A stretch of DNA of 64,000 bases from Prosthecobacter algae (GTDB lineage Bacteria; Verrucomicrobiota; Verrucomicrobiia; Verrucomicrobiales; Verrucomicrobiaceae), in contig NZ_BAABIA010000009.1 in NCBI RefSeq assembly GCF_039542385.1, forward strand, positions 186,001 through 250,000, read 5' to 3'. Positions 17,913 through 54,926 of this stretch are shown here, one piece after another. Both the position numbers and the translations under genes were made by a program. Every line of letters starts with the position of its first letter. Position 1 is the first letter of the stretch. Below the pieces are notes generated by a model. That model saw nothing but the letters and a program-made list of their open reading frames with translations, did no database searches and was not told the origin of the DNA.

Positions 17913-20791
<2,879 letters not shown>

Positions 20792-26086: not shown

Positions 26087-27241
26087 TTACTCCGGCTTCA
26101 GCACGACTTTCAGCAGGCCTTCCTTGTTGTCATAGAGACGCTTGAACCAGCCTGCGCCTTCTTCCAGCGGGGCCACAGCGCTCAGCAGGGGCTCCACCTG
26201 GATGCTGCCGTCTTCGATGCGGCGGATGGCTTCCGGATATTCGCCAGCGCAGGAGCAGGAGCCGCGCAGGGTGATCTGGCGGGTGACGACTTCCTGAAGC
26301 GGGAACGGGATGGAGGCCTGCAGATTGCCCACCAGGATAACCTGGCCGCCTTTGCGCACGCAGCGCACGGCGAGGTCCACCGGGGCCCCGGCACCCACGA
26401 CTTCAAAGCTGGCATCGGCACCATCACCGCCGGTGATTTCGCGCAGGTGCATGGCCAGGTTTTCTTGCTTGGCGTTGAAGGCATCGTCGGCCCCCAGGGT
26501 CTTGGAAAGTTCCAGGCGCTTGTCGTCCAGATCCACCGCGATCACGCGCTCCCAGCCACGGGCCTTGAGGGCCTGGATGACCAGCAAGCCAATGAGACCG
26601 GCACCGACAACGACGGCGATACCGCCCCGGATTTCTTCAGCACCGTGGTCGTGGCCTTCGCCAGCCGCATGGTCATGTCCGCAGCCTTCGCCGCAGCTCC
26701 CGCAGTCGCCTTCTTCACACTCTTCGGCAAAGGCCTCGCCGACTTCGATGCCATCCGCCAGATTCACCGCGTGCAGGGCGATGGCCACAGGCTCCGCAAA
26801 GGCGGCCTTTTCAAACGAAAGCGATTCCGGGATGCGGTACAGGATGCGGGTAGGCAGGACGATCTTTTCGGCAAAGCAGCCGTGACGGCGGTAGCTGCCA
26901 GGGGACACGCCCAGCACCTTGCGGTCCGGGCAAAGATTGACGTAACCCGCCTGGCACTCCTCGCACTCGCCGCAGTATTCGGTGGAGTCGAAGGTCACGC
27001 GGTCGCCCACTTTCCAGTCGGTCACGCCAGCGCCCACTTCCGTGATTTCCCCGGCGGCCTCATGCCCCATGACGATGGGCATCTGGCGGCGGCCACTGCG
27101 GCCGTCCATGCCGTGGATGTCACTGCCGCAGATGCCGCAGGCCTTGATCTTCACCAGCACTTCCCCTGCATTCGGGGCAGGATCAGGGAAGCTGGTGTCA
27201 TAATTGAATTCGCAAGGGGCGGTGAGGACGAGGGCTTTCAT
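26087..27241 (-). CDS. Zinc-binding alcohol dehydrogenase with an internal Cys/His-rich insert
   Basis: A 384-residue medium-chain dehydrogenase/reductase (threonine/sorbitol dehydrogenase-like). Catalytic zinc ligands are Cys38 in ACGICGSDIHG and His60-Glu61 in GHEAAG; the structural zinc site is Cys90, 93, 96 and 104. The Rossmann motif GGIAVVVGAGLIGLLVIQA begins near 206. Between the catalytic domain and that motif (about 170-203) lies EAFAEECEEGDCGSCGEGCG, then HDHAAGEGHDHGAEE: four Cys, four His and many acids, which the family does not normally contain. It looks like a metal-storage or metal-delivery loop. The substrate is unknown. It is convergent with the RND gene; no redox neighbours. 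Confidence 0.9.
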   Translation of the reverse strand: MKALVLTAPCEFNYDTSFPDPAPNAGEVLVKIKACGICGSDIHGMDGRSGRRQMPIVMGHEAAGEITEVGAGVTDWKVGDRVTFDSTEYCGECEECQAGYVNLCPDRKVLGVSPGSYRRHGCFAEKIVLPTRILYRIPESLSFEKAAFAEPVAIALHAVNLADGIEVGEAFAEECEEGDCGSCGEGCGHDHAAGEGHDHGAEEIRGGIAVVVGAGLIGLLVIQALKARGWERVIAVDLDDKRLELSKTLGADDAFNAKQENLAMHLREITGGDGADASFEVVGAGAPVDLAVRCVRKGGQVILVGNLQASIPFPLQEVVTRQITLRGSCSCAGEYPEAIRRIEDGSIQVEPLLSAVAPLEEGAGWFKRLYDNKEGLLKVVLKPE

Positions 27242-27477
27242 GGGTGATTGGGTCTGCCCTCATGATGAAAAGCCCAGGCCGGACGGCAAGGGCAGATTCC
27301 TTTTTGCCCCCGGCTGCCCCATCCCGCTGGCCCCTGCCGCATTAAACAGGGCCCCCGCCTCATTTTCATCCTTGCCACGCCTCCCGGCCCCTGGCGGAAT
27401 GGCCCGTGGTCAGGAATCGCGCTGCCGCTGACTTTCCCCGCAACTCCTCGCCGCTTCGCACGTTAAAGCCCCACTGC

Positions 27478-28692
27478 ATGTCGTTTGCCGCCACCACCCT
27501 CCTGCTCCCTTCCCCTGATGCCACCTGGCGTGTTTGGAAACCCCGGAGCACCAGCGGCGGTGAGGCCGTGGAGACTCCGGCCTCCGTCTCCAGCCAGGGA
27601 AAACCGCTGATGGTGGGCCTGCCCGCCACCGCCTGCCGCACCGTCGGCCTCGTGCTGCCCAATGCCGACCACGAGATCCTGGAGCAGATCATCATCACCC
27701 AGCTCGACCGCAAAGGGCTGAAGCTGGAGGGCGGTGCGCAGCGCAATTTCCGCTGGCACCTGCTCACCCAAAACGCCTCCGTGGCCACCGTGAGCGTGGA
27801 CATTTTGGCCGAGCCCTTCCCCCAGGATCTGGCCCTGCCCCAGGCCTCCGACTACACCGCCGCCCTGCGCCTGCTGACGCTGCCCAACGGCAGCCTCATC
27901 ATCACCGAGGAGCACGGCTCCCTCGTCCTGGCGGCCAACTATCAGGGCAAACTTTACCACAGCCACCTTTTCGCCCCGGCCACCGCCCCGGCAGAGGAAA
28001 TCGCGCAGGAGATCCAGCTCTCCCGGCTGGCGCTGGAACAGGACCTCGGCGTGGGCGGCATCACCGGCATCACCCTGGTGGGAACTTCCTGGGAGCGCGG
28101 GCAGGCGGAGCAGCTCACCAGCCTCACGGATCTGCCCGCCAAGATCCTGCCCCACCTGCCGCCCAATGCGGACCTGGACACCCGCACCTGGCCGCGCCTG
28201 CTGCCCCTCACCGTGCGCCAGGCCCAGAACAATGCCGCCCGCCGGGGCAAACTGACCCGCTTTGGCATCCTCGGCTCCCTGCTTTTCGTCGCCCTCGCCT
28301 TCTGCGCCTTTGCCTACCTGCGTCTGCAGGAACGCACGGCTGCCGAGCTGGAAGCGGCGGTGGAGGCCACGGCGGAACCAGCCAGCCAGGTGAAGAAAAC
28401 CGTCGAACGCTGGAAGGCCCTGGCCCCGGCCATCGAGCCGAAACGCTACCCCATGGTCCTCCTGGCAGAGATCACCAAACTCATGCCCCCCAGCGGCATC
28501 GTCATCCGCGAGTACGAAATCAAGGACACCGAGATCGACATCCGGGGCGAGGCCCGGGATGCCCAGATGGCCTTCCAGTTTGTCGAAGACCTGCAAAAGC
28601 ACAAGACGCTGGGCCTTTATAAATGGACCAAACCCCAGCCCACCGTGCGCGAAAAGGCCGCCCAGTTCCGTGCGCAGGGCAAGTTGCAGTAA
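27478..28692 (+). CDS. GspL/PilN-like secretion-assembly protein
   Basis: A 404-residue bitopic protein. The first 260 residues form a soluble domain of reduced actin-like type (GspL/PilM-like), followed by one helix (RFGILGSLLFVALAFCAFAY) and a periplasmic domain with the PilN pattern (PMVLLAEITKLMPPSGIVIR, MAFQFVEDLQKHK). GspL-type proteins anchor the cytoplasmic ATPase to the inner-membrane platform. It is the first of four consecutive plus-strand genes: this, 28717, 29288 and 30038. The start at 27478 is the ATG giving the family length. Assignment is by architecture and neighbours, not by a strong motif. Confidence 0.75.
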   Translation: MSFAATTLLLPSPDATWRVWKPRSTSGGEAVETPASVSSQGKPLMVGLPATACRTVGLVLPNADHEILEQIIITQLDRKGLKLEGGAQRNFRWHLLTQNASVATVSVDILAEPFPQDLALPQASDYTAALRLLTLPNGSLIITEEHGSLVLAANYQGKLYHSHLFAPATAPAEEIAQEIQLSRLALEQDLGVGGITGITLVGTSWERGQAEQLTSLTDLPAKILPHLPPNADLDTRTWPRLLPLTVRQAQNNAARRGKLTRFGILGSLLFVALAFCAFAYLRLQERTAAELEAAVEATAEPASQVKKTVERWKALAPAIEPKRYPMVLLAEITKLMPPSGIVIREYEIKDTEIDIRGEARDAQMAFQFVEDLQKHKTLGLYKWTKPQPTVREKAAQFRAQGKLQ

Positions 28693-28716
28693 CCGCCCCC
28701 ATCCCCCTTTGACCGA

Positions 28717-29268
28717 ATGGCCCAAAAACTGACATCGCGTGAAAAGAACCTGCTGCTCGCCTGTGTGGGCGTGCTGGTCTTCATGGTCTTCGCCATCCTG
28801 GTGAATACCTTCCTGGGGCGGCGCAGCGTGGCCCTGAAAAAGATCGCCACATTGCAGACCCAAAAGAGTGAAAACGACACCTGGATGGCCGATCGGGAGT
28901 TTTGGGAAAAGCGCCGGGGCTGGCTGCTGGAAAAGATGCCCGCCACGGAAAGCCTGGGCCGCGCGCAAGGGCAGCTTCTGGAAGACCTGCAAAACCAAGC
29001 CCTGGAGTACGGCTTTACGACCGAACAGCCCACCCTTCCGCCGCTGGCTGCGCCTAACGAAAACTATCGCGAGGTCACCGTCTCCGTACGCCTGCGGGGA
29101 GATCAGATCACCATCCTCCGGTGGCTGGCCACTCTACAATCGCCCGAGAAGTTCCAGGCCGTGCGCCAATTGGAGGTGGAAATAGACACCCGCTCACGCG
29201 AAAAGACGCCACAAGTCGTCTGCAACCTCACGCTCGCCCGGTGGTTCAAGCCTGAAATCGGTCTGTAA
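28717..29268 (+). CDS. GspM/PilO-like secretion-assembly protein
   Basis: A 183-residue protein with an N-terminal membrane helix (LLLACVGVLVFMVFAILVNT) followed by a coiled-coil segment (SVALKKIATLQTQKSENDTW) and a ferredoxin-like domain (VTVSVRLRGDQITILRWLAT), the GspM/PilO plan. These proteins bridge GspL/PilN to the secretin pilotin and platform. It lies 24 bp after the GspL-like gene and 19 bp before the next, so all are one operon. The ATG at 28717 fits the predicted helix. Confidence 0.75.
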   Translation: MAQKLTSREKNLLLACVGVLVFMVFAILVNTFLGRRSVALKKIATLQTQKSENDTWMADREFWEKRRGWLLEKMPATESLGRAQGQLLEDLQNQALEYGFTTEQPTLPPLAAPNENYREVTVSVRLRGDQITILRWLATLQSPEKFQAVRQLEVEIDTRSREKTPQVVCNLTLARWFKPEIGL

Positions 29269-29287
29269 ACCCGCCTCCTCACAGCTC

Positions 29288-29938
29288 ATGAAGACTTCCC
29301 ATCTGCTCCGCCTCTCTGTGCTGCTGCCCTCTGCGGCCCTGCTAGCTGCCGAGCCGGACCCGGACCTGCCGCAGGCCTTTGATCCCGCCACCCTTTCCTC
29401 CGTCATCACCACCTCCCCTTTCACACGGATGGTGAACATGTCGGACAACCTCGTGCTCACCGGCATCGCCTACATTGATGGCAAGCCCGTGGTCACGGTG
29501 TTTAACATGGAGAGCAAACAGTCCTTCATCGTCGGCTCCGAGCCGAACTTCCAGGGCTGGACGCTGCAGGAGGCCCTGCCCGCCCCGGACATCACCCGCA
29601 GCCAGGCCCGCATCAGCATCGGCGGGGAGGTCGTCAGCGTGCGTTACGCCGCCCTCACCGCCAAGGACATGAAGGCCGATGCCAAATCGCCCGAGCAACG
29701 TTCTGACCGTGGCTCCTCCTCCGGTGGCGAACGCTTCCGGGGCAGCTCGCGTGGCCCGTCCGAGGAGGACCGCAAACGCTACGAATCCCTTTCCGAAAAA
29801 GCCCGTGAAAAACTGCGCGACGCCATGCGATCCAAATTCAGTGATGAGAAATTCCGCAACGCGCCTGATGAGGAGAAGCGCAACATCATGCGCAAGACCT
29901 TTGAGGACATCGAAAAAGAGGACAAGGGCCGCAAGTAA
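29288..29938 (+). CDS. GspC/PilP-like periplasmic protein (tentative)
   Basis: A 216-residue exported protein with a signal sequence (LLRLSVLLPSAALLAAEPDP). Residues about 40-110 (LVLTGIAYIDGKPVVTVFNM, SFIVGSEPNFQGWTL) resemble the homology region of GspC or the PilP fold, which contacts the secretin. The C-terminal half is hydrophilic: SSSGGERFRGSSRGPSEEDR, then charged helices rich in Lys/Glu, perhaps a coiled coil or unstructured tail. It precedes the secretin gene by 99 bp. The role is inferred mainly from position and the small beta fold. Confidence 0.62.
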   Translation: MKTSHLLRLSVLLPSAALLAAEPDPDLPQAFDPATLSSVITTSPFTRMVNMSDNLVLTGIAYIDGKPVVTVFNMESKQSFIVGSEPNFQGWTLQEALPAPDITRSQARISIGGEVVSVRYAALTAKDMKADAKSPEQRSDRGSSSGGERFRGSSRGPSEEDRKRYESLSEKAREKLRDAMRSKFSDEKFRNAPDEEKRNIMRKTFEDIEKEDKGRK

Positions 29939-30037
29939 CCCCGCCCCCCTTCCCGCCTAACCTCATGTGCCGCATGCCCGCGCCCCAGGCCTAGCCCCCT
30001 TCCGCATCCACCTTTGCCCCAGCCCCAAACTTTCTTC

Positions 30038-32731
30038 ATGTTCCTCTCCCGGCTCCGTCCCCACTCCCTCCGGTCATTGAGCGCCCTGCTGCTCATCACA
30101 GGCACCCTCAGCGCCCAGGATGCCGACCCTGCACCTCTGCCGACTCCCGCACCCACCACGCCGCCACCCGCAGGCAGCGATGCCCCGGTGGCACCGCCCG
30201 AGGGCGCACGCCCGCCTGGCCCTCCTGGCGAAGGCGGCTTTGGCCCCGGCAGTGGTCGTTTTGGCGGTCGTCGTCGTCCCGGTGAAGGCGGCTTTGGCGG
30301 CACCACGGGCGGCCCTGCAGGTGCAGGCGGCCCTGGCGGTGAAAACATCCAGAGCACCCTGGCCCAGACCATCCGCATGGAGGGGGACCGATACGTCCTC
30401 CAGTTCCCCAACAACCCCGTGGCGGACATGCTCAGCATCTATGAGCTGCTGACCAACATCACCCTGGTGAAGGACACCAACATCTTCAACGACGGCGCCC
30501 CCGTCAGCCTGGCCACGCCCCGCTCCGTGAGCAAGGAAGAAGCGGTGAAACTCATCGAGGCCACCCTGCTAACCAATGGTTATGCCATCGTCATGGAGCC
30601 CGATGGCAAAAGCGCCCGCATCCTGCCTGCGCGCAATCAGAGCGCCAATGCGGTGCAGTTCTCCCACGGTGTGCGCTTTTACACCTCCGCCAAGGAATTG
30701 CCGGATGGGGAAACCATCATCTCCTACTTCATGAAGCTGGATTACCTGGACCCCGAAGAAGCAGCCACCATGCTCTCCGGTCACGTTGGTCTCAGCGTCT
30801 ATGGCCGCATCACTCCGGTGCTCATGCCGCCCGGCCTCCTGCTCACGGAAAGCAGCACCGTCATCAAGCAGCTCATCAGCATCCGCGAGGCGATTGACGT
30901 GGGCGATACCGGCTCCTCCCTGGTCACCAAGTTCATCCCTGTCGAATATGCTGAGGCGGCCACCATTGCCCAGATCATCCAGGCCACGCTGACAGCGCAG
31001 GCCCAGGAAAAGGAAACCAAAGGCGTGAACACCATCCGTGGCAATGCCGCCAGCGATGGCCGCAACCGCGAAGAGCGGCGCGATGACAACAATAACAACA
31101 GCAACAACAACCGCTCCCAGCAGCCCATGATCATCAATGGCCAGGTGGTGCAGGGCGGGGCCAAGGCCCCCATGCCCAGCGCCCAAGTGGTGGCAGACAC
31201 CCGGCTCAATCAGATCCTCGTCGTCTCTTCCCCAGAAGACTACACCTACATCGCCAGCTTGATTGCCGAATTCGACAAACCCCTGCAAGTGGATGAGCCG
31301 TATGAACGCAAACTGAAGTATGCCGCTGCGGTGGACGTGCTCAGCGCCATCACGGATCTCCTTCAAGATACGAACACCGGCGGCACTGTCCAGCTTCCCG
31401 GTGGCGGCACCATCCAGCAGCAGCGCACGCAGCCCCTGGCCAGCAGCAGCAGCCAGCTCCTCACCGGCAGAACCACCACCGGCACCCGTGGCGGCCAGGT
31501 CCTGGCCACCAGCGGCTCCACCTCAGACGATACGGCCACCGCCACCTCCGCCGGTTCCTCCCGTGCAGACCTCATCCAGGCCCCCACTGAAGACAATGCC
31601 CCCATCTCCGTGCTGGTGGGCAAGACCCGCGTGGTGGCGGACCCAATGGCAAACTCCATCCTCGTCATGGGCCGCAAGGAGGCCATCGATAAGGTCAACG
31701 GCCTGCTGGACAAGCTGGACCGCAAACCTTCCCAGGTGTACCTTTCCACCGTCATCGGCCAGCTCACCCTCGGTGACGGCTTTGAATTCGGCATTGATTA
31801 CCTGAGCGCGCTTAACAACAAGGATGGCACGAATTTCAGCGCCGGCAGCGTCTTCACCCGCGATGCCCTTACCAACGCTGTCGGTGACCTCCGCAACAAC
31901 GCCATCACCAATGCCTTTGGCCCTGCCCAGGGACTGAATCTCTACGGCTCCGTGGGCGACAGCCTGGAGATCTTTGTGACCGCGCTGGAGACCACCAACC
32001 GCTTCAAGGTGCTCTCCCGCCCCAGCGTCTTTGCCCTCAACAACAAGAAGGCCTCCATCACCTCCGGGCAGCTCATCCCCGTGCCCTCGCAGACCCTCAC
32101 CAGCACGAACGGCAATAACAACAATGGCAACAATGTCACCACGACCATCGAGTACCGGGACGTGGTGCTGAAGCTGGAAGTCGTGCCGCTGATCAACGAA
32201 GATGGCGAAGTCTCCCTCACCATCGCCCAGGTCAATGACACCGTCATCGGCACGCAGCGCGTGGAGCCTAACGACATCCCCATCATCGGCACGGAGCAGA
32301 TCGTCACCACCGTCACCGTGCCTGATGGCAACACCATCGTCCTCGGCGGCCTCATTTCCGAGCAGAACAAAAAGGACACCAACGGCGTGCCCTTCCTCAG
32401 CCGCATCCCTGGCGTGGGCAATCTCTTCAAGGACAACAAGGACAGCAACTCCCGCAGCGAGCTCATCATCTTCATCCAGCCCAAGGTGGTGACGGACAAC
32501 CTTTCCCTGCGCAACACCTCCCTGCGCGAAGACTTCCGCACCCAGGTCGGCGCCGATGCCGCCGAGCGCTTCCCGGAAAATGTGGACGTCCAGGCCCCTC
32601 GTATCAGCGAAGCCAAAGAGGTGGAACAACTGGAGAGCGCAGCACAGCAGAAGCAGGGCTTTTTCTCCCGCATGTTCCGCCGCAGCAGCACGCCCAAGGC
32701 CGTGACACCGCCACCCGGCGTACGGCGCTAG
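30038..32731 (+). CDS. GspD/PilQ-type secretin
   Basis: An 897-residue outer-membrane secretin, the channel of type II secretion or type IV pilus systems. The signal peptide SLSALLLITGTLSAQDADPA is followed by a Pro/Gly-rich stretch (residues about 30-110), N-domains (VADMLSIYELLTNITLVKDT; later N1/N2-type modules), low-complexity Asn-rich linkers (31082-31111) and the secretin barrel (LVGKTRVVADPMANSILVMG onwards). The C-terminal signature (NTIVLGGLISEQNKKDTNGV, PFLSRIPGVGNLF) is present. Some downstream Asn-rich loops (TSTNGNNNNGNN) are unusual. The ATG at 30038 is preferred over an upstream TTG. A terminator follows. Confidence 0.92.
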   Translation: MFLSRLRPHSLRSLSALLLITGTLSAQDADPAPLPTPAPTTPPPAGSDAPVAPPEGARPPGPPGEGGFGPGSGRFGGRRRPGEGGFGGTTGGPAGAGGPGGENIQSTLAQTIRMEGDRYVLQFPNNPVADMLSIYELLTNITLVKDTNIFNDGAPVSLATPRSVSKEEAVKLIEATLLTNGYAIVMEPDGKSARILPARNQSANAVQFSHGVRFYTSAKELPDGETIISYFMKLDYLDPEEAATMLSGHVGLSVYGRITPVLMPPGLLLTESSTVIKQLISIREAIDVGDTGSSLVTKFIPVEYAEAATIAQIIQATLTAQAQEKETKGVNTIRGNAASDGRNREERRDDNNNNSNNNRSQQPMIINGQVVQGGAKAPMPSAQVVADTRLNQILVVSSPEDYTYIASLIAEFDKPLQVDEPYERKLKYAAAVDVLSAITDLLQDTNTGGTVQLPGGGTIQQQRTQPLASSSSQLLTGRTTTGTRGGQVLATSGSTSDDTATATSAGSSRADLIQAPTEDNAPISVLVGKTRVVADPMANSILVMGRKEAIDKVNGLLDKLDRKPSQVYLSTVIGQLTLGDGFEFGIDYLSALNNKDGTNFSAGSVFTRDALTNAVGDLRNNAITNAFGPAQGLNLYGSVGDSLEIFVTALETTNRFKVLSRPSVFALNNKKASITSGQLIPVPSQTLTSTNGNNNNGNNVTTTIEYRDVVLKLEVVPLINEDGEVSLTIAQVNDTVIGTQRVEPNDIPIIGTEQIVTTVTVPDGNTIVLGGLISEQNKKDTNGVPFLSRIPGVGNLFKDNKDSNSRSELIIFIQPKVVTDNLSLRNTSLREDFRTQVGADAAERFPENVDVQAPRISEAKEVEQLESAAQQKQGFFSRMFRRSSTPKAVTPPPGVRR

Positions 32732-46755: not shown

Positions 46756-48087
46756 ATGACACCTCCAAACCGCCCCATTGAGTCGCCGCTGAACCGTCGT
46801 GACTTCGTGACCTCGGCTCTGGCTTTCGGGGCGGGAACGGCCTTTTCAGCCACAGGCGAAAGCCAGAAAGAGGTGCCGCTGCTAGGCCCCATCGTCGGGC
46901 ACACCGAAGAGAACAGCAGCATCCTTTGGATGCGTGCCCAAGTGGCCGGAGAGTATGTGCTGGAAGTCACCCCAGAGGCAGGAGGCGAAGCCACACGCGT
47001 CAAAGCCCAGGCCAAGGCCGAAAACGATCTCTGTCTGCACTGGCAGGTCGCTGGCCTGGAGGCAGGCACCCGCTATCGTTATCGTGTACTGGCAGGAGGG
47101 AAACCCCTCGCAGCAGCCGACGCCCAAGTTTTTGCCACCGCTCCCGCAGCCTCCACTCCCACCAAAGTTCGCTTGGCCATCAGCTCCTGTGCCAAAGAAG
47201 ATGCTGGCAGCCGCGCCGTGTGGAAACGCATGGCGGAAGAAAAGGTGGATGCCGTCGTGCTCATCGGGGACACGCCCTACATCGACAGTACCGATCTGGC
47301 CGTGCAGACCCGGCGGCATCAGGAGTTTGCCGCCGTGCCGGAGTATCAGGAACTGCTGCGCAACCGCCCCTGCTGGTGGACCTGGGATGATCATGACTTT
47401 GCCGGAAATGACAGCTCAGGCCTGGCCGTGGGGAAGGAAAACAGCCGGCTGGCCTTTACTCGTTACCGTCCGCAAGCCTCCTTTGGCGATGGCCAGGAAG
47501 GCATCTATACCAGCTTCCGATATGGCCCCGTGGAGGTCTTCATGATCGATGCGCGCTGGTTCACCATGACCGCCGTGTCTTACGCTAGTCCCACGAAGCC
47601 CACTTTGTTAGGCCTGGCCCAGTGGCAGTGGCTCCAGAAAAAACTTCTGGCCTCCACCGCCACCTTCAAGCTGCTGGCCTGTGGCATGATCTGGGATGAC
47701 AAGGAGAACAAGGAGCTGGATGACTGGGGCAGCTACATGCACGAACGCAAGGCGCTGGAGAAGTTCATCGGCGACCACAAGATCCCAGGCGTGATCTACA
47801 TCGGCGGGGACATCCATGCCAGCCGCGTGCTGAAGTATCCCACCCAAAAAACCGTGGGCTATGACCTCATGCAGTTCATCGCCTCCCCCATCCACAGCAG
47901 CACCATCGCCTTACTGAATGTGTACCACCCGGACCTCGTTCGCAGCGCCGTGGAACCCCACGTGTTTCTCATCATGGACATTGACTCCACCGTGACACCC
48001 GCCCGCCTGAGCGCCGAGCTGGTAAACAAGGATGGAGAACGCGTCTTTACCTACACCCTGAACCTTTCCGACCTCACCCCAGCCTAA
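46756..48087 (+). CDS. Tat-exported PhoD-like phosphoesterase
   Basis: A 443-residue protein with a Tat signal (NRRDFVTSALAFGAGTAFSA). It follows the PhoD plan: an N-terminal beta domain (LGPIVGHTEENSSILWMRAQ) and a metallophosphatase core with VRLAISSCAKED, VVLIGDTPYIDST, CWWTWDDHDFAGN and VIYIGGDIHASRVL carrying the Asp/Asn/His metal ligands. Its extracytoplasmic position upstream of phnA suggests that it cleaves phosphonate mono- or diesters outside the membrane, or simply releases phosphate. It is the first gene of the five-gene operon, preceded by the 22-bp palindrome. Confidence 0.88.
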   Translation: MTPPNRPIESPLNRRDFVTSALAFGAGTAFSATGESQKEVPLLGPIVGHTEENSSILWMRAQVAGEYVLEVTPEAGGEATRVKAQAKAENDLCLHWQVAGLEAGTRYRYRVLAGGKPLAAADAQVFATAPAASTPTKVRLAISSCAKEDAGSRAVWKRMAEEKVDAVVLIGDTPYIDSTDLAVQTRRHQEFAAVPEYQELLRNRPCWWTWDDHDFAGNDSSGLAVGKENSRLAFTRYRPQASFGDGQEGIYTSFRYGPVEVFMIDARWFTMTAVSYASPTKPTLLGLAQWQWLQKKLLASTATFKLLACGMIWDDKENKELDDWGSYMHERKALEKFIGDHKIPGVIYIGGDIHASRVLKYPTQKTVGYDLMQFIASPIHSSTIALLNVYHPDLVRSAVEPHVFLIMDIDSTVTPARLSAELVNKDGERVFTYTLNLSDLTPA

Positions 48088-48093
48088 CCACTT

Positions 48094-49341
48094 ATGCCAA
48101 ACGCCGTCTCTTTCTCCGTCAACGGGCGCACCTACACTCCGCCTGCACGCCCCATCGCCGTCATCTGCCTGGATGGCTCTGCCGATGAATACCTGGATGT
48201 CGCCCTGGCCCAAGGCCGCATGCCCCATCTTGCTCAATTGAGCCTCCAAGGCTGGCGCGGTTTTGCCCGGGCCGCCATGCCCACCTTCACCAACGTCAAC
48301 AACTCCAGCATCGTCACGGGCGTGCCACCCAGCGTGCATGGCATCGGCGGCAATTTCTTTTACGACACCACCACCGGCCAGGAAGTGATGATGAACTCCG
48401 CCCAGTATCTGCGTGCGGAGACGATCTTCCGCCACGCTCAATTGGCTGGCCGGAAGGTGGCCGTGGTCACCGCAAAAGAAAAGCTGCGGGACATCTTTGC
48501 TTCGGGCCTCATCTCAGAAGGCGGCATCGCCTTCTCCACGGAGAAAGCACGCTCCGCCGTGATGGAGACGCACGGCATCGCGGATGTGGAGGCCTTGTGC
48601 GGTCCTCAGCCGGAGATTTATAGCGGTGAGGCCAGTGTCTATGTCCTGCGCGCCGGGGCAGCGCTGCTGGCCGCTGGGCGGGCCGATTTCCTGTATCTTT
48701 CGACCACCGACTACATGCAGCACAAGCACACCCCACAGGAACCGGAGGTGGTAGATTTTTACGCGGCGATTGATGCGGAAATCGGCAAGCTGCTGGCCCT
48801 GGGAGCCATTGTGGGCGTGACCGCGGATCACGGCATGAATGACAAACAGACCGCCGAGGGAACCCCCAATATCATCTACCTGGAAACCGAACTGGAAGCC
48901 GCTTTTGGAACAGGCTTCCGCGTCATCCTGCCGATCACGGACCCTTACGTGGTGCATCACGGCGCCCTCGGTTCCTTTGCCCAAGTCCACGTGCCGGAGA
49001 GGGCCGACATCCCTGCCATCCAGCGCTGGCTGGCACTGCGAAAGGGCATCTCCGAATGCCATGACCGCAGCACGGCGGCACGCCTGATGGAACTGCCCGA
49101 AGACCGCATGGGAGATCTCGTGGTGGCCAGCGGTCGGGATGTGGTGCTGGGCCGTTCTCCTGACTGGCATGATTTGAAGGCCATCGAAGGCGGCCTGCGC
49201 AGCCATGGCGGGCGCTATGAAGAGATGGTGCCGCTGCTTTTCAGCGAGCCTCTGAATGCCGCCTATGCCAGCCGAGCCAGAGCGGATGTGCGGAACTTCG
49301 ACATCTTCGAAATCACCTGCAACGGCACTCACGCAGCATGA
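48094..49341 (+). CDS. phnA: Phosphonoacetate hydrolase
   Basis: A 415-residue alkaline phosphatase-superfamily enzyme that hydrolyses the C-P bond of phosphonoacetate to acetate and phosphate. Metal ligands and nucleophile can be placed: Asp27 (AVICLDGSADEY), nucleophile Thr66 (MPTFTNVNN), Asp206 and His210 (STTDYMQHKHTP), Asp245 and His246 (TADHGMND), and a later His in RSHGGRYEEMVPL, matching the spacing of PhnA. It starts 6 bp after the PhoD-like gene and overlaps the MFS gene by ATGA. It should be read as the last chemical step in the operon. Confidence 0.94.
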   Translation: MPNAVSFSVNGRTYTPPARPIAVICLDGSADEYLDVALAQGRMPHLAQLSLQGWRGFARAAMPTFTNVNNSSIVTGVPPSVHGIGGNFFYDTTTGQEVMMNSAQYLRAETIFRHAQLAGRKVAVVTAKEKLRDIFASGLISEGGIAFSTEKARSAVMETHGIADVEALCGPQPEIYSGEASVYVLRAGAALLAAGRADFLYLSTTDYMQHKHTPQEPEVVDFYAAIDAEIGKLLALGAIVGVTADHGMNDKQTAEGTPNIIYLETELEAAFGTGFRVILPITDPYVVHHGALGSFAQVHVPERADIPAIQRWLALRKGISECHDRSTAARLMELPEDRMGDLVVASGRDVVLGRSPDWHDLKAIEGGLRSHGGRYEEMVPLLFSEPLNAAYASRARADVRNFDIFEITCNGTHAA

Positions 49342-50615
49342 GCCTCACGCCCCACAGCGATCCCAGCTTCAAGCATGCCCAGTGGCGGGTGCTGGGCGCT
49401 GTGATGTTCTGCTACCTGTTTTACTACACAGGACGGCAGACCTTTGGGTTTGCCATTCCCGGCATCCAAAAGGAACTCGGCCTGAGCAAGGAAACGCTGG
49501 GCTGGATCAGTGCCGCCATGCTGTGGAGCTATGCCCTGGGGCAGGCCATCAATGGCAATCTCGGAGACCGCTTTGGCGGTCGGCGGATGATGGCCCTGGG
49601 TGCAGGGGCTTCGTTTCTGCTGAACTGGCTGACGAGCTTTGGACTCGGCTTTAAAAGCCTGGCCACAGCCTGGGGGCTCAACGGACTGGCCCAGAGCATG
49701 GGCTTTGCACCCGGCAGCCGCCTGCTCTCGAACTGGTTCGGCGCGCATGAGCGAGGCAAGGCCTTTGGTTTTTATGTGCTCGCCGCCGGCCTTTCCTCCG
49801 TGCTCTCCTTCGTCACATCTTTAGTTATTCTCGATGTACTGAAGCTGGACTGGCGCTGGATCTTTCGCCTGCCCGTCATCCTGATGCTCATCGGCGGGCT
49901 GGCTGTCTGGATCTTTGCCCGCGACCGGCCTTCACGCGCAGGCTTTGCCGACTTCGAGGATGATGCCGGAACCCCGGATGCCCAGACACCCGCCACCCAG
50001 GAAACCTCCTGGCAGCGTTACGCCAGCGCCTTGACGAATGGACGTCTGCTGCTGGCAGGGCTGGCCATCGGCTTTCAGAACACCGTGCGTTATGGTCTGC
50101 TCATCTGGGTGCCGGTTCACTTTCTCGGAGAGGACTTTAAAAGCGGCCCGGCGGGCAAATGGATCAGCGTGGCCCTGCCCCTGGGCATGGCACTCGGGGC
50201 CGTGGCCAGCGGCTGGATCTCGGACCGATTTTGCCAGTCGCGCAGGTCTGGGGTTATCGCCTCTTTCATGGTACTGGCCTCCATTTCTGCCGCTGCCATG
50301 TATGTGCTTCCACGTGGTCATGCACTGGGACTCCCGCTGCTGTTTTTATGCGGCTTCTTCGCCTATGGCCCCCAGTCCGCCTTTTGGGCCTTGGCACCTG
50401 ATTTGTTAGGCCGGGCACGCGCTGGCACAGCCGTGGGCATCATGAACTGCTTTGCTTATGCCATGGCTGGCCTGGGCGAGCCGCTGGTGGGCTGGTGTGT
50501 GCAGCACAATCCCTGGTCCGCCACACCGGGCGTGGAAAACACCGCCCTCGTCTTTCCCATCGTCGCCGTCTTCGCCCTGTGCAGCGCCTTTTTAGCCCTC
50601 TTCATCCGCCGATGA
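49338..50615 (+). CDS. MFS transporter, OPA (GlpT/UhpT-like) type
   Basis: A 425-residue, about 12-helix MFS permease. The N-terminal WRVLGAVMFCYLFYYTGRQT, and motif-A-like GNLGDRFGGRRMMALG and the repeated-half pattern match the organophosphate/phosphoglycerate (OPA) branch. Such permeases import phosphonates or phosphate esters, so it is the likely uptake system of this operon. It overlaps phnA and the alcohol dehydrogenase gene by 4 bp each, as expected of translational coupling. Confidence 0.88.
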   Translation: MSLTPHSDPSFKHAQWRVLGAVMFCYLFYYTGRQTFGFAIPGIQKELGLSKETLGWISAAMLWSYALGQAINGNLGDRFGGRRMMALGAGASFLLNWLTSFGLGFKSLATAWGLNGLAQSMGFAPGSRLLSNWFGAHERGKAFGFYVLAAGLSSVLSFVTSLVILDVLKLDWRWIFRLPVILMLIGGLAVWIFARDRPSRAGFADFEDDAGTPDAQTPATQETSWQRYASALTNGRLLLAGLAIGFQNTVRYGLLIWVPVHFLGEDFKSGPAGKWISVALPLGMALGAVASGWISDRFCQSRRSGVIASFMVLASISAAAMYVLPRGHALGLPLLFLCGFFAYGPQSAFWALAPDLLGRARAGTAVGIMNCFAYAMAGLGEPLVGWCVQHNPWSATPGVENTALVFPIVAVFALCSAFLALFIRR

Positions 50616-51670
50616 ATCACGCCCGCATCCAGCTTTTTCAAGGCCCCGGCCTGCCCTTCGAATCCCGCACTATCCCACTGCCGGACACACTGAATCCTGG
50701 AGAAATCCTGGTGGAAATCAGCCTAGCCACCGTCTGCGGTTCCGACCTCCATACCGTCTCCGGTCGTCGAGGTGCACCGACTCCCTGCGTCCTGGGGCAC
50801 GAAGCCATTGGCCGCGTCGTGGCCAGTGAACGGGCTGGTTTCAGCGAAGGTCAGCGCGTCACCTGGACCCTGGCCGACAGTTGTGGAAAATGCCCCGCCT
50901 GCACCCAATGGGGGTTGCCACAAAAATGTACCCACCTCTTTAAGTATGGGCATGCAGCCCTGGGCGATGGATCCGGCCTCAATGGCTGTTATGCCAGCCA
51001 CATTATCCTGCGGGCTGGCACCTTCGTTCTGCCCGTGCCTGACAGCCTGCTGGATACCCTGGTGGCCCCGGCGAATTGTGCGCTGGCAACGATTGTGAAT
51101 GCTCTCGAAGAGCCCTTGAAAGATCCTTCCATTCTCCGCACAGCCCTCGTTCAAGGCGGTGGCCTGCTGGGTCTTTATGCCTGTGCCTGGCTGCGTTATC
51201 GCGGTGTCGAGCGAGTCTTCTGCACAGACCTTTCGGAAGAGCGGCTCGCCCTGGTGCCTGAGTTTGGCGGCATCGCCATACCGGCCAATGAGAGCATGAA
51301 AAAACGCATCCTCGAAGAATCAGGCGGTGGGGTGGACTTGGCCCTGGAGGTCGCCGGTTCTGCCGCTGTGATCCCAGACGGGATCGCCTTGCTCCGCCCA
51401 GGTGGCACCTATGTGTGGGCTGGCATGGTGCATCCGCAAACAGCGCTGAACCTGACCGGAGAAGCCGTGCTGAGAAAGTGCCTCACCATTCGGGGCGTGC
51501 ACAACTATGCGCCACGTCACCTGACCACCGGCCTGGAATTCCTCGCCGCTCAGCAAGATCGCCTGCCGTTTGAAAAACTAGTGAGTCCGGCCCTGCCGCT
51601 TGCTGCCCTGGACGAAGCCCTCACCCTCACGGAAACGCGCCGCTGGCTGCGCGTCTCCATCGCCCCTTAA
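50612..51670 (+). CDS. Zinc alcohol dehydrogenase (TIGR03366-like, phosphonate-associated)
   Basis: A 352-residue zinc MDR dehydrogenase. Catalytic zinc ligands are in TVCGSDLHTVSG and CVLGHEAIGRV; the structural zinc cysteines are in SCGKCPACTQWGLPQKC; the Rossmann fold begins TALVQGGGLLGLYACAWLR. The sequence recalls the TIGR03366 family, proposed for phosphonate catabolism. In this operon, which has no phnW, it could oxidise 2-hydroxyethylphosphonate to phosphonoacetaldehyde, the substrate of PhnY downstream. Reaction assignment is inferred. Start 50612, overlapping the MFS stop by 4 bp. Confidence 0.88.
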   Translation: MNHARIQLFQGPGLPFESRTIPLPDTLNPGEILVEISLATVCGSDLHTVSGRRGAPTPCVLGHEAIGRVVASERAGFSEGQRVTWTLADSCGKCPACTQWGLPQKCTHLFKYGHAALGDGSGLNGCYASHIILRAGTFVLPVPDSLLDTLVAPANCALATIVNALEEPLKDPSILRTALVQGGGLLGLYACAWLRYRGVERVFCTDLSEERLALVPEFGGIAIPANESMKKRILEESGGGVDLALEVAGSAAVIPDGIALLRPGGTYVWAGMVHPQTALNLTGEAVLRKCLTIRGVHNYAPRHLTTGLEFLAAQQDRLPFEKLVSPALPLAALDEALTLTETRRWLRVSIAP

Positions 51671-51683
51671 AACACTTTTTGTT

Positions 51684-53102
51684 ATGCCACTTGATCTCCC
51701 CAGTTACGTCGCCGGCGTCGCCATTGAGAGCGAAGACCGTCTCGAAGTCTTCAACCCCTGGAACAACGCACTGGTGGGCCGTGTCGCCCGCATCACCCCG
51801 GCCCAGCTTGAAGAAGCCATCCAAACCAGCCTGCAAGCAGGCACGGCACTCACGCGCTATCAGCGCAGCGTCATCCTGCAGCAAACCGCCAGCGCCTTGC
51901 AGGAGCGGAGTGAAGAATTTGCCCAGCTCATCACCGCCGAATCTGGCTTGTGCCTGCGTGAGACGCGTTATGAGGTGGGCCGCGCCTGCGATGTCTTCCG
52001 CTTTGCGGCCATGGAGGCACTCCGAGATGATGGAGAGATCTTCTCCTGCGACATTGCTCCGGGCGGCAAAGCTCGGAAGATTTTCACCACGCGCGAACCC
52101 TTGCGCCTCATTGCCGCGATCACCCCCTTCAATCACCCGCTCAATCAAGTGGCGCACAAACTGGCCCCGGCCATCGCCGCAGGGGCTCCGATGATCCTGA
52201 AACCTTCGGAGAAAACACCCCTCACTGCCGTGCGTCTGGCGGAGGTTCTGTATGCCAGCGGACTGCCCGGCTGGATGCTCAGCGTGATTCATGGCGATTT
52301 GGAGAGCATCACCCGCCCCATGATCCGGGATGAGCGCATTGACCTCGTGACCTTCACAGGCAGCGCCGCCGTGGGGAAGGACATCGCCGCCACGGCAGGT
52401 TATAAAAAACTATGCCTGGAACTGGGAGGCCACTCCCCCATGCTGGTGCTGGAGGATGCCGATCTGGACCTCGCCGCGCTGCTGGCCTGCGAAGGCAGCT
52501 TCCGCAACAGCGGCCAGCGCTGCACCTCCGCCCGCCGCCTGCTGGTGCATCAGGCAGTCCTGACCGAATTCACGGAGCGGTTCGTGGCCAAAGCCGCCGA
52601 GTATGTGTGCGGAAACCCCGCCGATGAGGCCACCCGGGTGGGCACGGTGATTGATGAGCGCTCGGCCATGAATCTGGAAAAAGCGGTACAGGAGGCGCTG
52701 GCCTCGGGCGCTCAGCTTTTGGCCGGAGGCACGAGAACTGGAGCCCTTTTTCAGCCCACCATTCTGGCCAATGTCTCACGGACCTCCTACATCGCCCAAA
52801 ACGAGTGCTTTGGTCCCATCGCCCCGATTTTCCCGGTGAGCGACCTGGAGGATGCGCTGACTCTGGCCAATGCCACGCCCTATGGCCTCAGCTCCTCGGT
52901 CGTCACCCGCAGCCTGGAATCCGCCCTCACCGCCGTGAAACGCATCCGCGCTGGCACGGTGAACATCAATGAAATCCCGGGCTACCGGCTGGAGCTCTCC
53001 CCCTTTGGCGGAGTGAAGGACAGCGGCCTGGGCATCAAGGAGGGGGTCGTGGAAGCCATCAAGTTCATGTCCACCGTGAAGACCTTTTCCCTACCCTGGT
53101 AA
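51684..53102 (+). CDS. phnY: Phosphonoacetaldehyde dehydrogenase-like ALDH
   Basis: A 472-residue aldehyde dehydrogenase. The catalytic Cys is in NSGQRCTSARRLLVHQAV and the general base Glu in LELGGHSPMLVLED; the NAD-binding segment includes ITPFNHPLNQVAHKLAPAIA, followed by ILKPSEKTPLTAV. The position immediately after an alcohol dehydrogenase and together with phnA makes PhnY (phosphonoacetaldehyde to phosphonoacetate) the best call, although the ALDH fold alone could suit other aldehydes. It starts 13 bp after the dehydrogenase stop. ptsI follows 63 bp later, and is probably a separate unit. Confidence 0.88.
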   Translation: MPLDLPSYVAGVAIESEDRLEVFNPWNNALVGRVARITPAQLEEAIQTSLQAGTALTRYQRSVILQQTASALQERSEEFAQLITAESGLCLRETRYEVGRACDVFRFAAMEALRDDGEIFSCDIAPGGKARKIFTTREPLRLIAAITPFNHPLNQVAHKLAPAIAAGAPMILKPSEKTPLTAVRLAEVLYASGLPGWMLSVIHGDLESITRPMIRDERIDLVTFTGSAAVGKDIAATAGYKKLCLELGGHSPMLVLEDADLDLAALLACEGSFRNSGQRCTSARRLLVHQAVLTEFTERFVAKAAEYVCGNPADEATRVGTVIDERSAMNLEKAVQEALASGAQLLAGGTRTGALFQPTILANVSRTSYIAQNECFGPIAPIFPVSDLEDALTLANATPYGLSSSVVTRSLESALTAVKRIRAGTVNINEIPGYRLELSPFGGVKDSGLGIKEGVVEAIKFMSTVKTFSLPW

Positions 53103-53165
53103 GAGTTTCACGGTGACTGGTTTCTCATTTGCGAAAACCTCCAGTCCCCGCCAATCTGGGGGCCG

Positions 53166-54926
53166 ATGACTCAGGAAGTGCTTACACAGGAGAGAACTTG
53201 GCAGGGAACCGCAGTTTCCTCCGGTGTCGCCCATGCCGTGGTGCATGTGCTGAGAGAAGACTTCGATGAGCCGGATGCCGACCCAATCACCGCTGAGGAA
53301 GTGGAGGCCGAACTCGCCCGCTGGCACACCGCCATGGATGCCACCCATCGCGAGATCGAGCAATTGAAGGAGATGGTCTCCACCGAGGAACGCAGCGCCG
53401 AGGCGGACATCTTTGACACCCACCTCCTGATCCTGGAGGACATGTCCATCCGCAAGCATGTGGAAAAGACGGTCCGGGAAAAGCTGATCTGCGTGGATGC
53501 GATCTACTACCGCCTCATGTGCAAGCACATGGACGCCCTGCGCGGCTTGGCGGACTCTTACCTGCGCGAGCGCTTTCTCGACATCAAAGACATCACCCAC
53601 CGCGTGATGCGGCATCTGCGCGGCGAGCTGCTGCAGCACCCCATGTTTGATGATCCCGTGATCATCGTCGCCCACGATCTGACACCGTCAGACACCGTGC
53701 AACTGGACCGCAGTAAGGTGCTCGGTTTTGCCATCGAAACCGGCAGTGGCAATTCCCATGCGGCCATCATCGCCCGCTCCCTGGGCCTGCCCGCCGTGGT
53801 GAGGCTGCATGGCATCACGGATGAACTCCACTCCGGCGACCCTGTGCTGCTGGATGGTGATGAAGGCGCCCTGATCCTCAATCCCACCCCGGCCACCCTT
53901 TCCAAATATCGCTCCCGTGAGCAACTGGCAGAAAAGCGCGATGACGCCCTGCATGAGACGCGGCATCAGCCCTCCGTCACGCTCGATGGCATGGCCATCC
54001 AGGTGTGCGCGAATGCGGAATTCGTGGAAGAAATGGGCGACATCCGCGACAGCGGCGCTGCCCATGTGGGTCTGTTTCGCACCGAATTCCTCTACCTGGA
54101 AGATCCCGCAGGCACCGAGGACTGGCTGGCGGACAACTACACCCGCGCCGTCAAAATCATCGCCCCTGGGCAGGTCATCTTCCGCACCCTGGACATCGGC
54201 GGGGACAAGGTGGACGAGCAACTGGCCAGCGAGCAGGAGCCGAACCCCTTTCTCGGTTGGCGGGGCATCCGCGTTTCCCTGGGCCGCCGGGACATGTTCA
54301 AACGCCAGCTCCGCGCTCTGCTGCGGGCAGCCGCCCACGGTCCCATCGGCATCATGTTCCCCATGGTCAGCGACGTGGGAGAGGTGCGGGCCGCCAAGGA
54401 ACTGCTGGCCGAATGCGCCAATGAACTCAGCGCCGAAGGTTACCCACCTCCCCAGCAGGTGGAAATCGGTGCCATGATCGAAATTCCCAGCGCTGCCCTC
54501 ACGGCGGACCTCATCGCCACCGAGGTGGATTTCTTCAGTCTCGGCACCAATGACCTCGTCCAGTACACCCTGGCGGTGGATCGCCTAAATGAACGTGTGG
54601 CAGATCTTTATAGCCCCACCCACCCGGCTGTCTTGCGCCTCATCGCGCTGACGGTGGAGGCCGCCCGGCGGGCAGGCATCCGCGTGTGCATTTGTGGTGA
54701 AATGGCGGCGGATGTGGAAGTGCTGCCGCTTCTCATCGGCCTCGGTTTGGATGAACTCAGCGTCTCCACAGGCCAGATTTCCCGAGTGAAGCATGCCATC
54801 CGCAAGCTGAATGCCTCCGAATGCCGCTCCATCATCGATGCCTGCCGCCACCTCGGCTGCCCCAAGGAAATCCTGGGCCTGAGCCGGACCATGGCCCATG
54901 AGATGTATCCGGATCTGTTTGAGTGA
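53166..54926 (+). CDS. ptsI: Phosphoenolpyruvate-protein phosphotransferase (PTS enzyme I)
   Basis: A 586-residue enzyme I that transfers phosphate from PEP to HPr. The phosphoacceptor His198 lies in ETGSGNSHAAIIARSLGLPA. The HPr-binding helical domain is N-terminal, and the PEP-binding barrel includes LFRTEFLYLEDPAG, FRTLDIGGDKVDEQL, MIEIPSAAL, FSLGTNDLVQYTLAVDR and the active-site Cys in VCICGEMAAD. HPr and other PTS proteins are not in the window, so this is a local orphan. A regulatory PTS is likely in this group. No GAF domain is present, so it is ptsI and not ptsP. Confidence 0.92.
   Translation: MTQEVLTQERTWQGTAVSSGVAHAVVHVLREDFDEPDADPITAEEVEAELARWHTAMDATHREIEQLKEMVSTEERSAEADIFDTHLLILEDMSIRKHVEKTVREKLICVDAIYYRLMCKHMDALRGLADSYLRERFLDIKDITHRVMRHLRGELLQHPMFDDPVIIVAHDLTPSDTVQLDRSKVLGFAIETGSGNSHAAIIARSLGLPAVVRLHGITDELHSGDPVLLDGDEGALILNPTPATLSKYRSREQLAEKRDDALHETRHQPSVTLDGMAIQVCANAEFVEEMGDIRDSGAAHVGLFRTEFLYLEDPAGTEDWLADNYTRAVKIIAPGQVIFRTLDIGGDKVDEQLASEQEPNPFLGWRGIRVSLGRRDMFKRQLRALLRAAAHGPIGIMFPMVSDVGEVRAAKELLAECANELSAEGYPPPQQVEIGAMIEIPSAALTADLIATEVDFFSLGTNDLVQYTLAVDRLNERVADLYSPTHPAVLRLIALTVEAARRAGIRVCICGEMAADVEVLPLLIGLGLDELSVSTGQISRVKHAIRKLNASECRSIIDACRHLGCPKEILGLSRTMAHEMYPDLFE

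Follow-up and report, generated by a model that had tools for sequence, protein, structure and literature searches.

A Cys-, His- and acid-rich insert in a zinc-dependent dehydrogenase of Prosthecobacter algae and its possible role as a metal-binding arm

Why would a zinc-dependent dehydrogenase carry, between its two domains, a stretch as rich in cysteine, histidine and acidic residues as a metal-storage loop? The question is raised by a gene of Prosthecobacter algae located in the window analysed here, a stretch of 64,000 nucleotides. The gene (26087..27241, minus strand) encodes a zinc-dependent medium-chain (alcohol) dehydrogenase of 384 amino acids, as recognised from the open reading frame, Pfam and a fold match. 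Residues 171-203 of the protein (26731..26633) read FAEECEEGDCGSCGEGCGHDHAAGEGHDHGAEE and comprise four Cys (positions 175, 180, 183, and 187), four His (189, 191, 197, and 199), 11 Asp/Glu, and no Lys or Arg. The initial annotation had reported an insert with four Cys, four His, and many Asp/Glu at 26633-26731, and both its coordinates and its composition match the translation exactly. As delimited in this work, the insert follows the motif VGEAF and spans residues 172-208, including the GG end (26618..26728, minus strand), and it is disordered in the structural model. Its Cys core, C175-C187 (26681..26719, minus strand), contains the four Cys and was defined by the sequence and a recurring motif, and its His-rich lobe, HDHAAGEGHDH (26645..26677, minus strand), contains the four His and was defined by the linker comparison and the tree. 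The Cys block is preceded by a putatively older linker extension, GIEVGEAF (residues 164-171; 26729..26752, minus strand), which is common to Cys-free sister genera.

Concerning the host enzyme, Pfam assigned ADH_N to residues 25-139 (6.9e-32, 110.2 bits versus a gathering cut-off of 23.5) and ADH_zinc_N to residues 217-343 (2.5e-32, 112 bits versus 31.8). Judged by its sequence, the P. algae enzyme is a zinc dehydrogenase of the sorbitol/threonine dehydrogenase kind. It fell under the cut-off for the best 25 of the 27 matched models among the NCBIfam equivalogs (threonine, scyllo-inosose, idonate, and others), and the best score was that of scyllo-inosose 3-dehydrogenase (181.2 bits versus a cut-off of 450). 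Among the matches listed, the solved structures closest in sequence were 5vm2_A and xylitol, threonine, and sorbitol dehydrogenases. The sequence match splits in two for the majority of the 60 listed chains; 8h2b_A and 7aas_A are among the few with a single match stretch spanning the place of the insert, and in the three structure-sequence alignments viewed the insert residues were unmatched by any stretch.

We take C38, H60, E61 (27059..27130, minus strand), and E150 (26792-26794, minus strand) to be the ligands of the catalytic zinc, and C90, C93, C96, and C104 (26930..26974, minus strand) those of the structural-zinc lobe, as is known for this family. The presumed catalytic set is unchanged in the 75 aligned relatives and the structural set is present in 74 of them; all eight positions are held by each of the 50 insert carriers in the alignment. 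The claim that the enzyme retains its zinc ligands was thus well founded, and with these positions intact in the carriers the insert is an addition to an intact two-zinc enzyme. The P. algae genome also encodes paralogous dehydrogenases (12 matches at E 1e-5, counting the gene under study). Such an insert is absent from the six paralogues readable at the linker (L137-L142, of which L143 and L145-L147 are repeats); L144 was left out of this comparison because its linker was not readable.

The composition of the insert was compared with chance by scanning 464 kb of the same genome, that is, the 64-kb window and 20 stretches of 20 kb, with 2397 stop-to-stop frames of at least 80 codons. The scan looked for stretches of 36 amino acids with at least three Cys, at least eight Cys+His, at least nine Asp/Glu, and no more than two Lys/Arg. 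Such a stretch occurs in two of the 2397 frames; the dehydrogenase insert scores highest, and the other frame, of 102 codons, is probably not a gene. The composition of the insert exceeds chance within its genome. When Cys+His were counted alone in a 40-residue scan, the insert had eight versus up to 14 in spurious-looking frames; hence, it is the added acid and Lys/Arg criteria that single it out, and Cys+His alone are insufficient. The possibility of a module copied from elsewhere in the genome was rejected, since the insert peptide matched itself and one weak place (E 0.37), in which two translated frames showed no Cys/His-rich loop.

The AlphaFold model of the P. algae protein (75-row alignment) had a pLDDT of 88.1 and a pTM of 0.88 and presents the two-domain MDR fold. 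A structure search with this model returned 5vm2_A (Z 44.0, rmsd 1.9 A over 340 residues) along with sorbitol, alcohol, and threonine dehydrogenases, matches that concern the host fold only. In the model, the insert bridges the helix 149-162 and the first Rossmann strand (208-212). This helix begins at the zinc-binding E150, so the insert leaves from the helix end away from the active site, although a disordered arm of 40 residues might reach back to it. The carrier L052, with a different insert type, was also modelled (35 rows; pLDDT 82.3, pTM 0.85). The pLDDT drops below 50 at residues 175-203 of the P. algae protein and at residues 169-192 of L052, whose model shows two further weak stretches (45-53 and 114-118). 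Therefore, no pre-folded domain is predicted in either carrier, a disorder that is weak evidence because AlphaFold cannot model the metal.

The distribution of the insert was followed from the family outwards. In the family, 68 genomes were searched; the dehydrogenase was matched in 65 and had no match in three, and the linker was readable in 64 of the 65, as G062 has the N half only and was left out. The Cys-rich insert is kept in 51 of the 64 readable genomes: 46 of the 47 of the genus of the window, the three readable ones of g18 (which has four genomes), and both of g19. Fifty of these carriers entered the composition count and one, L072 (G071), had its insert read separately. The remaining 13 genomes, without a Cys-rich insert, are G075, of the same genus as the window, and 12 of other genera, with linkers of 18-23 residues that contain at most one Cys, sited at the end before the strand. 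Regarding the rest of the order, 12 genomes were read directly (L099-L110; 10 plus G036 and G037) and have a linker of 8-9 residues versus 48 in P. algae. The class search matched 57 of 384 genomes and the phylum search 25 of 387, in overlapping sets with at most five candidates scored per genome. Outside the family, 53 genomes matched, of which 46 with both halves were counted and seven with one-half matches were excluded; two of the 46 are also among the 12 read directly. The insert is absent from all 46, in which the halves are separated by at most eight residues versus 36-47 in the P. algae protein. This agrees with the earlier remark that similar ADHs have only a short turn at this place. 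The search for the insert thus covered the phylum, plus solved structures and a contig scan which gave 39 loci, all with titles naming Verrucomicrobia or members of this phylum. Two objections raised at the outset, absence from close relatives and a sequencing error, do not hold. The insert is conserved in close relatives, and an error or frameshift is ruled out by its in-frame presence in those 51 genomes and by the silent codon changes within it.

To follow its history, a tree was built with 75 distinct full-length proteins from which the linker had been cut out. They were drawn from the 114 loci with a homologue after dropping duplicates and partials (L068 has the N half only). All 50 carriers lie on one side of a single branch with a support of 76. 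The Cys-free protein of G075 (L079) joins them at an open fork, with its base starred at 97, and could represent an outgroup or, alternatively, a loss of the insert. One state change suffices on this tree and no loss is required among the 50 carriers; the topology is compatible with a single gain, at a support value that is weak. The motif VE(V/I/L)GEAF is present in the Cys-free L080, L081, L082, and L085, and VEVGSAF in the Cys-free L079; its presence in Cys-free sister genera is the basis for proposing that the linker extension preceded the Cys block. The simplest story would be a growth of the linker from about 9 to 18-23 residues and then one gain of the Cys block. In addition, the metagenome-assembled records L049 and L052 are titled Akkermansia muciniphila; their gene groups with Prosthecobacter-type carriers and the titles are probably mislabels.

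The insert has diversified among its carriers. The 49 distinct inserts contain 11.6% Cys, 8.3% His, 30% Asp+Glu, and 2.6% Lys+Arg, and their length from the AF residues to the strand varies between 20 and 39 residues. Each of the 50 carrier genomes counted has at least three Cys+His in its insert (range 3-10). In 30 of the 50, the form is 3-4 Cys and 0-2 His, with Cys equal to or exceeding His, and in nine there are just two Cys. A His-rich second lobe, with two or more HxH pairs, is found in close relatives of the window (L001, L002, L004, L070, and L071), and another clade of nine rows presents Cys-poor, His-richer loops (C-E-H-G-C-E-H, C-G-H-D-C-E-H-N-H). The distribution of these loops on the tree indicates that His richness arose as an elaboration in the clade of the window and in one other. 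The insert of L098 (G074), a partial protein outside the tree, reads ASTCGDASCEGCDSHEHHEGEGCDEEAKGG, where Cys flank a His lobe on both sides. With a His lobe of its own in G074, the two-lobed form may have had more than one origin.

Although the loop varies, its Cys spacing recurs. All 50 carrier genomes counted present two or more Cys with C-x(2-4)-C spacing, which occurs in 49 of the 49 distinct inserts versus a mean of 25.7 and a maximum of 36 in 1000 shuffles within each insert. The longer core C-x(2-4)-C-x-[C/H] occurs in 43 of 49 versus 3.8 on average and at most 10 in the shuffles. Six of the 49 inserts have no core; in the others, the third core residue is Cys in 29 and only His in 14. 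Such an alternation of Cys and His would be expected of metal ligands rather than of a fixed disulfide. As these shuffles ignore kinship, ten disjoint sister pairs, with non-overlapping paths on the 75-protein tree and inserts of equal length, were picked by hand and compared codon by codon. None of the 28 insert Cys codons was replaced, and six changed silently. By comparison, replacements affected two of 27 His codons and 35 of 219 codons for other residues in the insert (Fisher p 0.019 for Cys versus the others; p 0.015 for Cys+His, 2/55 replaced, versus the others). A column test pointed in the same direction (one of 14 Cys columns variable versus 37 of 92, p 0.017), although its rows are related and it is weaker than the ten-pair test. 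The pN/pS ratio was 0.21 for the whole insert versus 0.05 for the rest of the gene (11 pairs, not all independent), that is, about four times higher with no Cys codon replaced, so the loop drifts but its Cys do not. However, Cys outside the insert are also slow to change in the same ten pairs (1/103 codons replaced), and the retention may partly be a general property of Cys. On moderate evidence, the insert Cys appear to be kept by selection. A ligand-rich loop can apparently be gained and then kept by its composition instead of its sequence.

The surroundings of the gene were also explored. It is flanked by genes on the opposite strand, encoding an RND pump and a PilN-like protein. Eleven neighbours in the window (these two and a secretin among them) were compared with 114 locus stretches, many of them of a few kb, and were matched in L001, which is the window's own locus, and in L042 only, the latter for the RND pump. 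Over 75 loci, no cluster of neighbours is present in more than 15, and some of the clusters are probably antisense frames. No clue to a metal pathway was seen in the gene neighbourhood, where the neighbours are mostly unshared among the relatives compared, and no Zur-box-like palindrome was evident by eye in nine upstream stretches. In these nine stretches, also by eye, a CTTGCCG ... TTTTCAT-like sequence just upstream of the start (about 27250-27310) is common to several close relatives and is perhaps a promoter. Elsewhere in the window, the plus strand carries a PilN-like protein, two short open frames, and a secretin (27406-32731), resembling a type II secretion/pilus cluster, and a single open frame with an exosortase EpsH domain and a DUF3485 domain (19028-20791). 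A second zinc-type dehydrogenase, without the insert, is encoded at 50495-51670 (plus strand), inside a plus-strand run (46756-54926) of a PhoD-like phosphatase, a type I phosphodiesterase, an MFS transporter, this dehydrogenase, an aldehyde dehydrogenase, and a PEP-utilising enzyme; from its gene content the run looks like a catabolic cluster.

How cytoplasmic zinc enzymes acquire their zinc is largely an open question. A disordered, ligand-rich, acidic stretch of variable length, in which Cys are kept and Cys and His are interchangeable, has the pattern of a fluxional metal-binding arm. The reading that we prefer, and to which we give about an even chance, is that of a flexible arm similar to the SlyD tail, which a stand-alone zinc dehydrogenase of the Prosthecobacter lineage would have acquired, probably in a single event. 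With its Cys, and with its His as well, this arm would loosely and fluxionally bind soft or borderline metal ions, of which zinc is the most likely. It would then act as a zinc buffer for its enzyme, supplying or resupplying the catalytic or the structural site in times of zinc scarcity, or it would hold surplus metal. The interpretation given in the initial annotation, a metal reservoir or sensor, is partly supported, and the loop may act as a store, a loader, a sensor, a structural site, or a redox switch. We infer that a metal is bound by the arm; that this metal is zinc and serves the metallation of the enzyme itself is our guess, since in a two-zinc host zinc is the likeliest metal and the buffering or loading of its own sites the likeliest use. 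A possible but doubtful form of the idea is a built-in, metallothionein-like zinc donor, where the arm captures and retains zinc and then delivers it to the catalytic or structural site of the same enzyme, with no need for a separate metallochaperone, and where Cys and His swap freely because the number of ligands alone matters.

Several observations count against the flexible-arm reading. Spacing and length vary so widely that no defined site is conserved, and since 13 of the 64 family genomes have the same enzyme without the Cys block, zinc loading does not generally depend on the arm. The retention of Cys reaches modest p values. In AztD homologues, according to PMC6689063, terminal or inserted residue tracts are disordered and zinc-free in crystals.

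A structural zinc knuckle, in which the Cys core would bind one zinc tightly and fold into a module for contact with another subunit or a partner, is rather unlikely in our judgement. The recurrence of the core in 43 of the 49 distinct inserts would suit it, and there is a precedent in the Cys-rich insertion of MurT, described in PMC6085368 as probably zinc-binding and located at an interface. Yet the variation of 20-39 residues in length, the nine carriers with just two Cys, the lack of a predicted fold in two carriers of different insert types, and the few hydrophobic residues available to form a core count against a folded module. The C-x(2-4)-C spacing, present in all 49 distinct inserts and all 50 genomes, could instead serve a redox switch, with Cys pairs forming a disulfide when oxidised and changing the oligomer or the activity. 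We find this improbable, as the insert is also rich in His and acid, the third core position is only His in 14 of the 49 distinct inserts, and the loop starts at the end of the helix far from E150, where no connection to the active site is apparent.

It could also be that the insert is a tolerated ornament, a surface linker drifting freely, rich in Cys, His, and acid by descent and functionless. Its amino acids evolve about four times faster than the rest, its length changes frequently, a single origin would make the shared composition partly an inheritance, Cys outside it are also slow to change, and 13 of the 64 family genomes do without it. On the other hand, in the sister pairs its Cys codons change silently and never by replacement, and no loss is required among the 50 carriers on the tree, though L079 at the open fork could be one; we consider a functionless loop quite unlikely. 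The least probable proposal, to which we attach very little weight, is a docking or donor site, with an arm that is either supplied with zinc by a metallochaperone or delivers it to other proteins and a dehydrogenase that is a mere carrier. Such a role would fit an arm that is acidic, disordered, and rich in ligands, and according to PMC6689063 zinc transfer from AztD depends on the flexible AztC loop and its three His, but no conserved genomic partner was found among the loci of the relatives and the insert sequence was not clearly found elsewhere in its own genome.

Returning to the flexible arm, one enzyme in one order offers linkers of 8-9 residues, 18-23 residues, and 31-50 Cys-rich residues. 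This natural series is a ready-made test of whether a disordered arm of thiols and imidazoles alters the loading, retention, or choice of metal in a two-zinc enzyme that is well understood. Among the matches listed in the open literature searched (titles and abstract starts), no insert of such kind was described in an alcohol dehydrogenase, which is limited evidence for its novelty.

Compared with known systems, the enzyme belongs with the sorbitol/threonine/alcohol branch of the medium-chain dehydrogenase/reductase superfamily, whose Pfam domains, zinc-ligand positions, and whole fold it shares; it differs in its longer linker and in falling under the NCBIfam cut-offs shown. Metal-binding arms on metalloenzymes are found in some bacterial Cu,Zn superoxide dismutases, which are periplasmic and carry a His-rich N-terminal metal-binding extension proposed to load their own site. 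That extension is terminal and His-led, whereas the dehydrogenase arm is an internal insert. The Cys-rich insertion of MurT is alike in being placed in a known enzyme fold and probably zinc-binding, but according to PMC6085368 it forms an ordered module resembling a zinc ribbon, whose Cys tetrad is largely conserved. The dehydrogenase inserts, with 2-4 Cys and variable spacing and length, contain no such fixed tetrad, and no fold is predicted in the two carriers modelled. The initial annotation had likened the insert to the metal-storage loops of HypB or SlyD. It is indeed a ligand-rich, low-complexity, disordered stretch of that type by its composition and pLDDT, on a host that is an alcohol dehydrogenase and neither of those proteins according to Pfam. 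The likeness to HypB turned out weaker: HypB, whose function is a different one, likewise bears a stretch rich in metal ligands, for which a storage role has been proposed (PMC7055735), but that region lies close to the N-terminus, is dominated by His, and works for nickel enzymes, whereas the insert is internal and mostly Cys-led (in 30 of 50 genomes, 3-4 Cys with 0-2 His). The likeness to SlyD stood. According to PMC7055735, its C-terminal tail lacks a defined structure, abounds in His, Cys, Asp, and Glu, differs from one species to another, and can take up several Ni(II) or Zn(II) ions. The dehydrogenase insert is similar in composition, disorder, and variability, a likeness by description with no homology claimed, and what in SlyD is the tail of a prolyl isomerase is here an internal loop of a zinc enzyme.
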